Below, one piece after another: positions 52,191 through 63,314 of a stretch of DNA of 64,000 nt. Within the stretch, counting starts at the first letter, position 1, and each line of letters begins with the position of its first letter. The translations under genes and the position numbers were made by a program. This DNA is from Deltaproteobacteria bacterium (lineage in GTDB: Bacteria > Myxococcota_A > Polyangia > Polyangiales > JADJMO01): positions 1 through 64,000 of the forward strand of contig JALHOE010000015.1 of NCBI GenBank assembly GCA_022843175.1, in the 5' to 3' direction. The notes under the pieces were generated by a model. The model was not told where the DNA came from. It worked only from the letters and a program-made list of their open reading frames with translations, and did not search any database.

Positions 52191-52272
52191 GCGACGGTGG
52201 CGGAACTGGCATACGCACTGGGTTTAGGTTCCAGCGCCGAAAGGCATGCGGGTTCAACTCCCGCCCGTCGCA
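52191..52272 (+). tRNA. tRNA-Leu (anticodon UAG)
   Basis: 82-nt class II tRNA. The acceptor stem GCGACGG pairs with CCGTCGC, with A as discriminator. The anticodon stem CTGGG/TCCAG frames the loop TTTAGGT (anticodon TAG). A short variable arm (CGCC GAAA GGC) and a T arm CGGGT TCAACTC CCGCC follow. CCA is not encoded. The phage-like region begins directly after it. Confidence 0.93.
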
Positions 52273-52298
52273 CTCTGCACGAGAAAAACAAGGGTGAA

Positions 52299-54641: not shown

Positions 54642-54827
54642 ATGGACCGCGACACGAGGGCGCCGACCATCGCGCAGATCCGACACCCGCGCGAGAGGGC
54701 CGAGCACGCCACGTCGCCGCGCGTCCGCGCGCTCCACGCTCGGATCGCCCGCGACCGGATCGCCGAGCTCCGTGCCCTGCTCGACGTTGAGGAGCGGGCC
54801 CTCGACGCGCTCGAAGGTGCCTCATGA
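54642..54827 (+). CDS. Small helical hypothetical protein
   Basis: 61 residues, starting directly after the preceding stop. Mostly one amphipathic helix (VRALHARIARDRIAELRALL, then DVEERALDALEGA). Its end overlaps the next gene's ATG. No family. Confidence 0.5.
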   Translation: MDRDTRAPTIAQIRHPRERAEHATSPRVRALHARIARDRIAELRALLDVEERALDALEGAS

Positions 54828-55420
54828 GCTGGTACGTGGTGCCCCCGGGCGCCGACGGCATGGTCATGGCGCACGCCACGCTCCCGGTCCGCTACCTCGT
54901 CGGCGGGCTCATCCGCGCGCGTGATCGGTATCGCGGCGTCGACGTTCTCGCCGAGGAGATCGCCACGTCGCTCGCCGAGGCGACGCGGATCGCGATCGGC
55001 CTCGTGCTGACGATCGACATGCAGGAGGACGCGAGGCGCGAGCTCGAGGCCCGCGAGCGCGATCGGCGTCGCGGCTACACGCGCGACCGCGTTGCCGATC
55101 GCGACGTGGTGCGCGAGCTCCGGCGCCGCCTCGACGATCCCGCGCGCGTCGTCCATGCCCTCGGGCTCGAGAAGGGGGCGCGTCGACAGCCGCGAGGCGT
55201 GACCGTGCTGTGCCCCTGGCACGACGAGCGCACGCCCTCGTGCTCCGTGCGCGTCGCCGACGACGGGACGATCGCGTGCCGGTGCCACGGCTGCGGCGCG
55301 ACCGCCGACGTCCTCGGCCTCGTCGCCGCGGTGCACGGGCTCGACCCTCGGCGCGAGTTCCGCCGCGTCCTCGAGACGGCGGCCGCGATCGCCGGCGTCA
55401 CCCTCGCGAGGGCGTCTTGA
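54824..55420 (+). CDS. CHC2 zinc-finger (primase-type) protein
   Basis: 198 residues. The N-terminal part (about 1-110) is helical and unassigned. The C-terminal part has a DnaG-like CHC2 zinc finger: C130-P-W-H133 (VLCPWHDERTPSCSVR) and later C154-x2-C157 (IACRCHGCGATADVLGLV). No TOPRIM domain follows, so it would be a finger-only protein acting with another replication factor. It overlaps the RepA-like ATPase gene by four bases, which supports a DNA replication role for the pair. Confidence 0.75.
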   Translation: MSWYVVPPGADGMVMAHATLPVRYLVGGLIRARDRYRGVDVLAEEIATSLAEATRIAIGLVLTIDMQEDARRELEARERDRRRGYTRDRVADRDVVRELRRRLDDPARVVHALGLEKGARRQPRGVTVLCPWHDERTPSCSVRVADDGTIACRCHGCGATADVLGLVAAVHGLDPRREFRRVLETAAAIAGVTLARAS

Positions 55421-56571
55421 GCACGCCCTACGACGACGCGCTCGCGCAGGCCGAGCGAGGTGGCGACGCGGAGGGCGAACCCATGGACGCGGCGCACGTC
55501 GCCGCCCTGTTCGCCGACAACGGCAGCGCCGCGCCGACCTCGGCGAAGATCATCCGTCCCAACTTCGCGTTGTTGAGCGCGGTGCCGCCGTTCGCGCTCG
55601 TCGGGCCGGAGCAGGGGCTGTGGGGGCCGCTCGAGCCGCTGGCGTACGCGGTCGCGGGCATCATCCCGGCGTCGTCGCTCACCTTGCTCTCGGGCTACTC
55701 GAGCTCGCTCAAGTCGTGGCTCGCGCTCCACATGGGCTTCGCGAAGGGCGCCGGGCTCCCGTGGCTTGGTCATGAGCCGTTCGCGGCCGAGCGCGGGCCC
55801 GTCTCCTACTTCGATCGCGAGGCCGGCCTGCACGAGCTGCGTCGGCGCCTGCACGCGATCCGGCGGCCGCTCGGCATCATGGACGACCCGCTGCTCGACG
55901 TCTGCTCGTTCCCCGTCGGCGGCAACATCTTCTCCCGCGAGTTCATGGCGCGGCTTCGCGAGCTCGCGCACCAGCGCGACCTCATCGTGCTCGATACGCT
56001 CGTCGCGTTCGCGGCCGGCGCCGACGAGAACAGCGCACAGATGGCGGAAGGGCTCGGCGCCTGCTCCGAGTCGATCGCCGGGACCAAGTGCGCGATGGTC
56101 GTCGTCGCGCACGAGAAGAAGAAGGGCGCGAACGGCGACGTCGACCCGCGCGAGCGAGTCCGCGGCTCGTCGGCGATCTTCGGCGCCGTCGACGTCGTGC
56201 TCTCGTGTCAGCGGTCCGCACCGCGCGAGCCGGTCGAGGTCGTCCAGACGAAGGCGCGCAACGGGCGCGAGGCCGAGCCCTTCGCCGTCTCGATGCTCGA
56301 CGCGCCCGACGGGGGAGTCACGTTCGCCGTCGCCGGCAAGACCGAGCCGCGCGAGCTGACCCCCACGGAGCGCCTCGACCTCGAGGTGGACCGCGTGGTC
56401 GACGTCGTGCGCGACAACCCGAGGTGCTCCGGCGCCGTCGTCCAAGAGGCGCTCAGGATCCGCAAGGCGTCGGTGGGCGTCCTCGTCGCCCGCGCGATCG
56501 AACAGGGGCGCATCCGCAACCTGGGCAACGAGAAGGCGCCGGCCCTCGTCGCCCTCGAGGGCACGCGATGA
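55417..56571 (+). CDS. RepA-like AAA ATPase (hexameric helicase type)
   Basis: 384 residues from the TTG in a TTGA overlap. Walker A is SGYSSSLKS (G93 to K99-S100) and Walker B is LIVLDTL (D193). An AHEKKK sensor-like segment and an RGSSAIFGAVDVV stretch follow, as in RepA/DnaB-related ATPases of plasmids and phages (AAA_25 type). The C-terminal 60 residues look like a winged helix. It probably unwinds or loads at the element's origin; ten direct repeats start 64 bp after its stop. Confidence 0.78.
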   Translation: MSTPYDDALAQAERGGDAEGEPMDAAHVAALFADNGSAAPTSAKIIRPNFALLSAVPPFALVGPEQGLWGPLEPLAYAVAGIIPASSLTLLSGYSSSLKSWLALHMGFAKGAGLPWLGHEPFAAERGPVSYFDREAGLHELRRRLHAIRRPLGIMDDPLLDVCSFPVGGNIFSREFMARLRELAHQRDLIVLDTLVAFAAGADENSAQMAEGLGACSESIAGTKCAMVVVAHEKKKGANGDVDPRERVRGSSAIFGAVDVVLSCQRSAPREPVEVVQTKARNGREAEPFAVSMLDAPDGGVTFAVAGKTEPRELTPTERLDLEVDRVVDVVRDNPRCSGAVVQEALRIRKASVGVLVARAIEQGRIRNLGNEKAPALVALEGTR

Positions 56572-56600
56572 CCCCGACGCTGCCCTCGACCTCCCGCCCT

Positions 56601-56753
56601 GTGGTTCCGGTTCCCCCTCATAGAGAGGGGGGAACGGGAACCACGGGTGACGGGAACCACGGGAACCACGGCGGGAACCACTCGGGAACCACCGGGAACC
56701 ACTCGGGAACCACACCCCCCCGGGAACCACTCGGGAACCACCTCGGGAACCAC
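56601..56753 (+). repeat. Long hairpin followed by ten CGGGAACCAC direct repeats
   Basis: 56,601-56,644 can fold into a stem of about 18 bp (GTGGTTCCGG... against ...CGGGAACCAC) with a loop of about 7 nt. Exact copies of CGGGAACCAC start at 56,635, 56,651, 56,660, 56,672, 56,683, 56,693, 56,704, 56,721, 56,732 and 56,744, mostly 9-12 bp apart. This resembles an iteron cluster. A reading frame from ATG 56,568 passes through it (Gly-Asn-His repeats), but it looks like a shadow. Confidence 0.85.
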
Positions 56754-56841: not shown

Positions 56842-57024
56842 ATGGAGCAGGAGCAGGACACCAAGCCCGGGAAGCAGTGCACGGAGTGCCGCAACGTGGT
56901 GCGCCCGCCGCTCCACTCGCTGTGCATGCGTTGCTGCGCGAACGCGGTTCGCGGGAACGAGAAGGGGCTCGAGGCCCTGGCACTGCGGCCCGACGGCTCG
57001 ACGCGGCCCCGCCGCCGCGTCTGA
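56842..57024 (+). CDS. Small zinc-ribbon protein
   Basis: 60 residues with two Cys pairs, C-T-E-C (KQCTECRNVV) and C-M-R-C-C (LCMRCCANAV), a minimal zinc-binding module. Basic C-terminus (RPRRRV). Common style in phage genomes; role unknown. An AACAGGAGA ribosome binding site precedes its ATG. Confidence 0.6.
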   Translation: MEQEQDTKPGKQCTECRNVVRPPLHSLCMRCCANAVRGNEKGLEALALRPDGSTRPRRRV

Positions 57025-58709: not shown

Positions 58710-59594
58710 ATGACGAAGACGAAGACGACCACGCACAAGGTGAAGCAGGCCGAGACGCAGCTCGCGGAAGCAACCGCGGCCCTCGAGGCGCACGCGACTG
58801 TCGCAAGCGATCTCCACAGGCAGCACAGCGAAGCCGGGGCCATCGTCGCCGGTGCGAAGCCGGCAGCACTCGCAGCCACGGCGCCGACGGACGCCGCGGT
58901 GAAGCACTGGAACGAGCGCCGCGCGGCCGCCGACTGGTTGCTCGCGAAGGTGAAGGAAGCCGACGCCGAGACGGCGCGCCTGCAGGCTATCGTCGACGAG
59001 AAGCGCGCGACCCTCGAGCACGAGATCGAGGCTGTGCGGCTCGCGCAGATCCGCGCCGCGAACGAGGCAAGGCTCGGCGAGCTCCTCCCCGCGATCGCGC
59101 GCTCGCGAGAGCAGATGGCCGCGAAGCACGTGGCGAGCTTCCTCGCGGTCGAGAGGCAGATGTCAGCCGCCGAGGCGGAGCTGCAAAGCGACATCGCCAG
59201 CGATGCCGCGCTGCGTGCCGAAGCGACTCGCGTCGCAGCGCACCTCGGCGTCGAGATCGCTCTGCCGCCGGAGACGGTCCGGGCTCACGTGTTGGCGCTC
59301 GTCGCGGTCGCCGAAGACCGAGCGCCGGTGCACGCGTTCGTCCAGCTGCCGCGCGCGCCGGAGCAGCCGCACAAGCGGCTCGAGCACCTCTGTTCGCTGC
59401 TCTCCGAGCAGCACACTCCCTTCTTCGAAAAAGAATGGCCCTTCGCCGATCGCATCGGCGCGGTCTTGGCTTTCGATGGGACGTATCGCGCGCGCGTGTC
59501 GGCTCTCAAGGCTGCGCGCTCGGCCGAAACCAGGCGCATCGCCGCTGTTGGAGATGCGCCGTTCCGCGGCGGGAAGTTCGCTTTCGGGCGGTGA
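58710..59594 (+). CDS. Coiled-coil protein
   Basis: 294 residues from ATG 58,710, chosen for the AAGGAGAACTGACC leader. Residues about 10-175 are nearly continuous coiled coil (VKQAETQLAEATAALEAHAT, AETARLQAIVDEKRATLEHE). The last 100 residues form a smaller domain. Directly precedes the Mu-type protease, where scaffold-like proteins sometimes sit, but a scaffold normally follows or is nested in the protease gene. Role unknown. Confidence 0.6.
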   Translation: MTKTKTTTHKVKQAETQLAEATAALEAHATVASDLHRQHSEAGAIVAGAKPAALAATAPTDAAVKHWNERRAAADWLLAKVKEADAETARLQAIVDEKRATLEHEIEAVRLAQIRAANEARLGELLPAIARSREQMAAKHVASFLAVERQMSAAEAELQSDIASDAALRAEATRVAAHLGVEIALPPETVRAHVLALVAVAEDRAPVHAFVQLPRAPEQPHKRLEHLCSLLSEQHTPFFEKEWPFADRIGAVLAFDGTYRARVSALKAARSAETRRIAAVGDAPFRGGKFAFGR

Positions 59595-60451
59595 TGACCA
59601 TGAACACCAACACGAACAAGGGTCAGATCGTCCGCCTCGGCGCCGCCGTCGCGTTCAGCGGCAACGGCCCGCCCACGGAGTTCCGTCTGTTCAAGGCGGG
59701 CCCGAACGACACCGCTAAGGGCGTGTTCCTCTTCGACGCGCGCGCCGCCGCTCTCGTGATGGCTGCGGCGAACAGGTGGGGTGTCGACCTCATGATCGAC
59801 CTCGAGCACCGGTCGCTCGACTCCGGTGTCAACCACGACCCCGACGCGCGCGGCTGGTTCCGGCTCGCCCTGCGCAATGGCGAGCTGTGGGCCGTCGACG
59901 TCCGTTGGACCCCTGACGGTGCGCGTCGTCTGAGCGATCGCACGCAGCGCTACATCAGCCCCGCCTTCGCGACCGACGACGCCGGGCGAGTCGTCGAGAT
60001 CGTCAACGTCGCGCTCGTCGCGATGCCCGCCACGCACAACACGCCCGCGCTCATCGCGGCGCACAGGAGACACACGACCATGCCGACCAAAGATCAGTTC
60101 ATCATCCGCCTCGCCGCCTCGAAGCGGAGGATCACTCAGCTCGCCGAGGACGGCGCCGACACCGGCGATGGGAAATTCGCAGCGGTCCAGGAAGCAGCGA
60201 ATAAGATCGAGAAAGCCCTCGCCGAGCTCGACGCCGCGAGAACCGATCCGGTCGTCGCCGCGGGCGTCACGGAAGCCTGCCAGGCGCTCGAGGCCGCGAT
60301 CGATGCCCTCTACAGCGTCGAGTTGCGGACGTTCACGACACAGGTCGGGCGCGTGACGCTCACGAAGAACCAGATGCAGGAGTGCGCACGCGCGGGCGTT
60401 GACCCCGCGGCCTACGCGGAGAGAACCGCGCGCCAATACTGGGTGAGGTGA
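59594..60451 (+). CDS. Mu-type phage protease (gpI-like)
   Basis: 285 residues from ATG 59,594; a GTG three bases earlier and an ATG six bases later are alternatives. The N-terminal 150 residues match Mu I protein-like proteases: LMIDLEHRSLDSG, DARGWFRLALRNGELWAVDV, WTPDGARRLSDRTQRYISPAF and VALVAMPATHN. In Mu this protease matures the procapsid and its C-terminus gives the scaffold. The helical tail here (about 165-285) fits a scaffold-like region. A stem without T-run follows its stop. Confidence 0.82.
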   Translation: MTMNTNTNKGQIVRLGAAVAFSGNGPPTEFRLFKAGPNDTAKGVFLFDARAAALVMAAANRWGVDLMIDLEHRSLDSGVNHDPDARGWFRLALRNGELWAVDVRWTPDGARRLSDRTQRYISPAFATDDAGRVVEIVNVALVAMPATHNTPALIAAHRRHTTMPTKDQFIIRLAASKRRITQLAEDGADTGDGKFAAVQEAANKIEKALAELDAARTDPVVAAGVTEACQALEAAIDALYSVELRTFTTQVGRVTLTKNQMQECARAGVDPAAYAERTARQYWVR

Positions 60452-62507: not shown

Positions 62508-63314
62508 TCAGTCCAGCAGGCGAGAGTCGATTCGGATGCACCATCGGCCTTTGTCGGCCCCCTCCGCGTAGGTATCGAAGTGCACGCCGAGAACCGCATC
62601 GAGGGGTACGACGCGGCCCTGTGTCCTCAAGATATCGATCCCGCCCAAGACGAGCGCGTTGCGCAGATCGTCCAAGCTCTCGAGCGTGTGGACGCCACCG
62701 GAGAAGCGCACCGCGTTGCTCGGAAGGAATGTGACGTGCACCTTCGCCTTCTCGGGGACTTGCCGCAGCATCGAGATCGTTCGTCGCAGGGAAGGGATCA
62801 TCAGCATCGCGGCTTGCTCCGGGTTCAACCAGATCGAGTCCTCACCCACACGCATCGGAAACAGGTACGCATCGACGTTCTTCCTATGGTCGCCGTCGTC
62901 GCATTCCGTTTGCTTCACGCGGACGCCGGTAGCCTGTCCGACGGTCGGATAGACGTTGAGCGCGACCACGTGAGTCCCATCGATCTCGATCGGTCGCGGC
63001 GCGACGATGGGCTGGGGCCGCAGGCGTTCGTTGACGACCGCGTGGAGCGCGTCGCAGAGCGCCGCCGCAGCGTGGGCGTCCTTCCCCTCGTACTTCTCGA
63101 GGCGGTGGTCCTTCTCGGTCGCGCCGAAGACGATCGTTCCTCCCGACGCGTTCGCGAAGGCCGCCACGTCCTTCGCGAGTTCGAGAGGCGCAGCGGTCGG
63201 ATCGATGTTGTGGTGCCAGGCCTTGAATTCGAGCACCTGCCCCTCGATGCCGTCAGGCGCGCCAGGTCGCGGGAGATCGCCACACGTGAGCCGCGGAATG
63301 AAGTGGACGGTCAT
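62508..63314 (-). CDS. AlbA_2/Schlafen-type DNA-binding domain protein
   Basis: 268 residues. The N-terminal domain (about 20-120) has the AlbA_2 pattern: EGQVLEFKAW, ELAKDVAAFANASGGTIVFGATE, and later VVALNVYPT. Such proteins occur as regulators, RNA/DNA-binding enzymes and in phage-defence or accessory islands. The C-terminal part is unassigned. It is one of three minus-strand genes and could be cargo of the element. Confidence 0.7.
   Translation of the reverse strand: MTVHFIPRLTCGDLPRPGAPDGIEGQVLEFKAWHHNIDPTAAPLELAKDVAAFANASGGTIVFGATEKDHRLEKYEGKDAHAAAALCDALHAVVNERLRPQPIVAPRPIEIDGTHVVALNVYPTVGQATGVRVKQTECDDGDHRKNVDAYLFPMRVGEDSIWLNPEQAAMLMIPSLRRTISMLRQVPEKAKVHVTFLPSNAVRFSGGVHTLESLDDLRNALVLGGIDILRTQGRVVPLDAVLGVHFDTYAEGADKGRWCIRIDSRLLD

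Follow-up and report, generated by a model that had tools for sequence, protein, structure and literature searches.

A hairpin-bearing iteron array behind a RepA-like helicase gene is a candidate replication origin of an integrated phage-related element

The array described here lies in an integrated mobile element of 16.24 kb (16,239 bp) that occupies a tRNA-Leu gene of a myxobacterium-like genome; the window, by which we mean the whole stretch of DNA that was analysed, is 64,000 nucleotides long. The left boundary of the element is attL, a 52-bp repeat (52223-52274, + strand) formed by the 3' part of the tRNA-Leu gene (52191-52273), and the right boundary is attR at contig positions 68461-68512, beyond the window, where 51 of the 52 positions are identical to attL. 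A tyrosine integrase (phrog_1, 4.7e-29) is encoded beside the right att copy, and its ORF reads into the attR repeat, so that both the att repeats and the integrase of an integrated mobile element are present. The element also encodes a Mu-like prophage I protein, the head maturation protease (59435-60451, +; PF10123, 1.7e-25; phrog_328, 4.5e-28), and none of its ORFs that were scanned could be recognised as a terminase, portal, or capsid gene. Taken together, the att repeats with the integrase, the Mu-like protease, and the absence of recognised terminase, portal, and capsid genes give the element the look of a satellite or a degraded prophage, judging from gene content. Two similar SLFN/AlbA_2 genes (62508-63314 and 63729-64538, the latter partly past the window) are found on the element's opposite strand (-), joined there by a DUF4145-like gene (L239:4707-5516), and all are cargo. 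PADLOC, run on five element genes including both AlbA_2 genes, returned no match. The first ORF past the array (56842-57024, +) encodes 60 amino acids with a CxxC...CxxC pattern, for which no family was found.

Two overlapping genes precede the array. The first encodes a 198-aa CHC2 zinc-finger protein (54824-55420, +; Pfam PF01807, 4.6e-8; PHROG DNA primase families) that consists of the primase finger only; we found no TOPRIM or PrimPol domain in it, and a catalytic primase domain is lacking; its same-family homologues reach 69% identity. The second encodes a RepA-like RecA-fold (SF4) ATPase of the hexameric-helicase type (55417-56571, +; AAA_25, 3.1e-24). It begins with a TTG start that shares the four bases TTGA with the CHC2 stop, so the original prediction was correct in describing the pair as coupled. 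The AlphaFold model of the ATPase has a pLDDT of 84.5, and its top PDB match is RSF1010 RepA (1nlf, E 2.3e-13), which, together with the AAA_25 match, places the RecA-fold core with the RSF1010 RepA-type (SF4) helicases. A protein scan of genome contigs with the ATPase as the query returned no relatives. Residues 315-378 (56362-56553, +) are modelled as a C-terminal winged helix of topology H-H-H-E-E, with helices at 315-332, 338-345, and 349-361 followed by two strands, at a pLDDT mostly between 92 and 97; when the last 70 residues are modelled alone, the pLDDT is 92.9. Among solved structures, those of MarR regulators and of the Z-alpha and FtsK-gamma domains come closest, with weak E-values but TM-scores of ∼0.6-0.7. 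On the strength of this model, we propose that the winged helix is probably the part of the ATPase that reads the iterons.

The iterons are ten exact copies of CGGGAACCAC (56635-56753), all on the + strand, with a main period of 10-12 bp. The copies start at 56635, 56651, 56660, 56672, 56683, 56693, 56704, 56721, 56732, and 56744, which gives spacings of 16, 9, 12, 11, 10, 11, 17, 11, and 12 bp that use every codon phase. No copy of CGGGAACCAC occurs elsewhere in the 64 kb, where 0.09 are expected and where 100 shuffles yield a maximum of 1. The most frequent 8-mer here is GGAACCAC, with 11 occurrences on the two strands combined, compared with a maximum of 4 in 1,000 dinucleotide shuffles. 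These are short tandem direct repeats at approximately helical-turn spacing near a rep gene, the arrangement by which iteron origins are recognised. Overlapping the start of the array is a hairpin (56597-56647, +; core 56601-56644) with an 18-bp core stem and the tip CCCTCATAGAGAGGG; folded as single-stranded DNA, it has an energy of -22.4 kcal/mol (z = -7.2). Its left arm carries an inverted repeat copy, GTGGTTCC, and its right arm contains the first exact CGGGAACCAC copy. The iterons and the hairpin together lie 30-182 bp beyond the ATPase stop (56571). The ten copies, a hairpin of about 18 bp, and a placement 30-180 bp past that stop had all been called beforehand from the letters of the sequence, and each of these calls stands.

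The composition of the region and the scans for other signals were as follows. The GC content of the array is 66-74%, and no AT-rich melting region lies beside it within the window, the lowest 40-bp GC after the stop being 0.625; in many relatives, the region after the helicase stop is AT-richer than here. There is no T-run at the hairpin on either strand, and a terminator scan of the region gave no call. A promoter scan detected no sigma-70-like promoter at the array, although a sigma-70 model may not fit this host. An Rfam search returned only sub-threshold microRNA-type hairpin matches and no family at the gathering score. We also considered a GC-skew switch as a sign of an origin; the skew minimum at 57.07 kb and the maximum 8 kb from it are suggestive, but the amplitude of ∼80 is below the random-walk expectation for this length, and GC skew was therefore not used.

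The closest relatives of the CHC2 protein show what is retained at this position and what is not. G051, which belongs to the same genus, encodes a CHC2 protein with 65% identity, and behind its gene come a RepA-like gene, six copies of GGTCGAGAT, and a hairpin with the tip CCCCTTTAGGGG. A genome of the same family (G050) has three CHC2 loci with CGGGACGA, GGACGAGGT, or GAATGGAG directly past the helicase stop; GGGACGA, GGACGAGGT, and GAATGGAG all serve as words within the family. Thus, an array stands right behind the helicase stop at all of the closest CHC2 loci in G051 and G050, while exact GGGAACCAC was not found at the array position in these close relatives, which have other words there. 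The original prediction had proposed conservation of the repeats in related elements as a check and their absence as a refutation. The position of the array passes this check and the literal word fails it, since words differ between lineages; the refuting condition as phrased is too literal, because the word changes while the array and the hairpin stay. At the third G050 locus, the RepA-like helicase is replaced by one of the DnaB type (PF03796, 2.1e-13), and the array still follows, so that the origin appears, from these loci, to travel with the helicase while its word is rewritten. As a separate observation, Microcystis phage MinS1 (L324), whose helicase is of the DnaB type, and a same-family element with a RepA-like helicase (L207) have the word GGACGAGGT in common despite their different helicases.

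The relationship between gene and array was approached from both sides. Starting from the word, we searched for three GGGAACCAC copies at a 10-12 bp period, with the letter-reversed triple as the control. In viral contigs, the triple was found in 18 stretches versus 1 for the reversed control, and a homologous helicase is present at the array in 17 of these 18, several of which are near-duplicates. The helicases are built in different ways: PrimPol fused to AAA_25, AAA_25 alone, or a DnaB type (Nocardioides). In genomes, the triple gave 22 stretches, mostly simple or coding repeats, and the module is clear only in the Prauserella and Nocardioides loci. Pairs of the 9-mer GGGAACCAC were dropped as evidence because they are at background (7 genomes versus 10 with reversed-control pairs, among 184 of the order) and many of those in databases, spaced by 9, 18, or 36, belong to coding repeats. 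A text search of the literature for the repeat word gave 203 matches, of which the 20 listed are unrelated by title.

Starting from the gene, homologues were gathered by protein sequence alone, with no reference to the repeat, and 118 of them had enough sequence for a 430-bp interval around and after the helicase stop to be compared with 1,332 control windows drawn from other parts of these loci. A single exact 8-mer is present four or more times in this interval in 49% of the homologues versus 1.8% of the controls, and five or more times in 27% versus 0.9%, with the qualification that the homologue loci are partly redundant. Strong hairpins are enriched about eightfold past the stop (45% versus 5.5%), and C[TC]NTAG caps a stem in 20% of homologues versus 0.3% of controls. 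Among the distinct arrays, 43 of 49 have a hairpin of at least 8 bp, and 30 of 49 have the iteron core in a hairpin arm. The words vary among homologues, including CGGGAACC, GCGAACCA, GGGGACAGC, GGTACATT, and many more. Approximately half of the 118 homologues have no exact 8-mer array in the tested interval, and in L201 and L203 the arrays are degenerate. No array was found after the helicase stop in a subfamily comprising L208, L209, L215, L224, L226, L229, L230, L234, and L236; L208 and L209, on contigs C56 and C84 of the genome that carries the present element, are two further ATPase paralogues of this 'VEHRxA...RNESL' subfamily. At locus L228, a helicase-like ORF is followed by an irregular and very long array of CGTCCACG/GTGGACG with the hairpin CCGTATATACTCTTAAGGAGTATACGG. 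Across the homologues, similarity of the word tracks similarity of the C-terminal tail beyond that of the helicase core (partial r 0.17, a value reached in 0 of 2,000 permutations), whereas core similarity beyond the tail gives 0.06; the tail effect is small, and the sequences are related.

The layout also occurs in named phages and plasmids: Microcystis phage MinS1, Idiomarinaceae phage 1N2-2, Alteromonas phage PB15, Salicola phage CGphi29, and Streptomyces phage mu1/6, in the last of which the array falls within the helicase gene, at its 3' end. Two circular plasmid records carry the module, plasmid III of Candidatus Promineifilum breve (40.8 kb, with genes for capsid, terminase, and protease) and plasmid p1 of Caenibius sp. 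WL (38.1 kb, with phage genes), which shows that the module occurs in extrachromosomal elements too. In the Promineifilum plasmid, most of whose genes are unnamed, we saw no further gene annotated for replication. With the finding that the present element is an integrated unit with att sites and an integrase, these records lend indirect support to the suggestion that it may replicate autonomously, as a phage-plasmid or a satellite.

These findings support the notion that the iterons and hairpin are the replication origin of the 16.24-kb integrative element, to which we assign a probability of roughly 0.8. This reading draws on the non-chance array and hairpin, the homologue survey, the viral triple search, the closest relatives, the predicted winged helix, the tracking of the C-terminal tail by the word, the circular phage-plasmids, and the PICI/SaPI precedents, and it supports the original prediction of a candidate origin behind the helicase, given that such arrays are common at this place in homologues and rare elsewhere in their loci. 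Points that speak against it are the homologues without an exact array, the lack of an AT-rich melting region beside the array in the window, the missing catalytic primase domain of the CHC2 protein, the partial redundancy of the homologue loci, and the small size of the word-tail correlation. We envisage that the element would excise and circularise, after which the winged helix of the helicase would bind the iterons and place a RepA hexamer immediately 3' of the gene that encodes it. With a stem made of iteron copies, the hairpin could offer a single-stranded or cruciform site at which unwinding and priming begin; its use as the priming site is possible but somewhat doubtful. The CHC2 finger protein, or the PrimPol domain of other members, might recruit the primase or form part of it, and host polymerases would then extend from the primed site. 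Because word and winged helix appear to change in step, each element would be expected to recognise only its own origin.

An unlikely alternative, though the best of those we weighed, is that the array is an operator at which the winged helix or another regulator controls the downstream genes or the rep operon, with replication starting elsewhere. MarR-type winged helices are mostly regulators and iteron arrays often serve as control sites too; however, the array is behind rather than before the operon, no copy lies elsewhere in the window, no sigma-70-like promoter was seen (a model that may be unsuited to the host), and arrays trail the helicase gene in phages and plasmids whose downstream genes differ. 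We consider it very improbable that the hairpin is only a terminator or RNA-stabilising element of the rep mRNA and that the repeats are by-products of slippage: the strong GC-rich stem just past a stop codon would fit a terminator, but the lack of a T-run on either strand and of a terminator call does not, nor does the presence of the lineage-specific repeat in the stem of 30 of the 49 distinct arrays, while slippage is at odds with the irregular spacing and with copies on both strands in many relatives, and an RNA element with the lack of an Rfam family at the gathering score. Scarcely credible is the reading of the repeats as a low-complexity tail that is translated, or as a chance or coding repeat. 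Coding GGGAACCAC pairs do occur in databases, such pairs are at background frequency in the order, and in phage mu1/6 and some PrimPol relatives the helicase frame overlaps the array at its 3' end; even so, the window copies use all three phases after the stop, contrary to the translated frame that the original prediction had named as a refutation, and triples at 10-12 bp exceed the control 18 to 1 in viral contigs.

Beyond the present element, the origin reading leads us to a broader proposal, which we hold at slightly less than even odds: that these loci represent a widespread, unnamed class of origin in phages, satellites, and plasmids. In this class, a swappable RecA-fold helicase (RepA or DnaB, with a CHC2 or PrimPol partner) would carry its own winged-helix reader and have its origin at the 3' side. 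The word would be freely rewritten while the iteron hairpin, often with a C-T-T/A-T-A-G tip, is kept and, in GC-rich members, serves as the site of melting and priming in place of an AT-rich stretch. If so, the origin of an uncultured element could be read from sequence, just past the helicase stop, and the layout would be a marker for origins in many unannotated phage contigs. The paired change of word and winged helix would provide a natural set for studying origin choice by a reader that is part of the helicase, as well as a route to predicting compatibility among phages, satellites, and phage-plasmids, and the conserved hairpin tip raises a testable question.

Several known systems share parts of this arrangement. 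The phage-inducible chromosomal islands (PICIs) have a pri-rep-ori order with iterons immediately 3' of rep, in two sets that flank an AT-rich stretch (PMC6092414), and SaPI Rep and SCCmec Cch2 are described as binding iterons through a C-terminal domain (PMC7581432). The present module resembles these in its primase gene, helicase gene, and lineage-specific iterons directly 3' of rep, in pri-rep-ori order on an integrative element of satellite size, and also in the predicted role of the helicase C-terminal domain as the iteron recogniser. It differs in that the helicase is of the RecA-fold RepA/SF4 (or DnaB) kind and not the SaPI Rep type, and in that an iteron-built hairpin is present while the window lacks an AT-rich stretch flanked by two sets of iterons. 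The oriV of RSF1010 (IncQ) employs RepA, the hairpin priming sites ssiA and ssiB for RepB', and a separate iteron binder, RepC (PMC4434180, PMC4234260). Shared features are the RepA fold, iterons, and single-strand hairpins, whose priming use is that of RSF1010; here, in contrast, the iteron reader appears to be fused to the helicase, CHC2 or PrimPol stands in the position of the primase, and no RepC- or RepB'-type gene was found among the scanned ORFs of the element, a set that covers its small ORFs in part. Plasmid pRN1 has an essential stem-loop downstream of its primase-helicase gene, with a winged helix at the C-terminus of the encoded protein, and no iterons (PMC4234260). A stem-loop just 3' of the rep gene and a C-terminal winged helix, here predicted, are likewise found in our module and link it to pRN1 and phage BIP-1, but pRN1 has an SF3 helicase, fused to PrimPol, and a stem-loop of ∼100 nt without iterons, whereas our element has a RecA-fold ATPase, a CHC2 protein, and ten iterons. 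The alpha protein of phage P4 is described as a helicase with a winged helix that binds origin repeats (PMC4234260); it is one TOPRIM-primase/helicase chain, whereas the CHC2 finger and the RecA-fold helicase are encoded here by separate genes. Among the open papers covered, we found no description of this combination of traits. An exact match to none of them, the present module unites traits of the PICI, RSF1010, and pRN1 origins.
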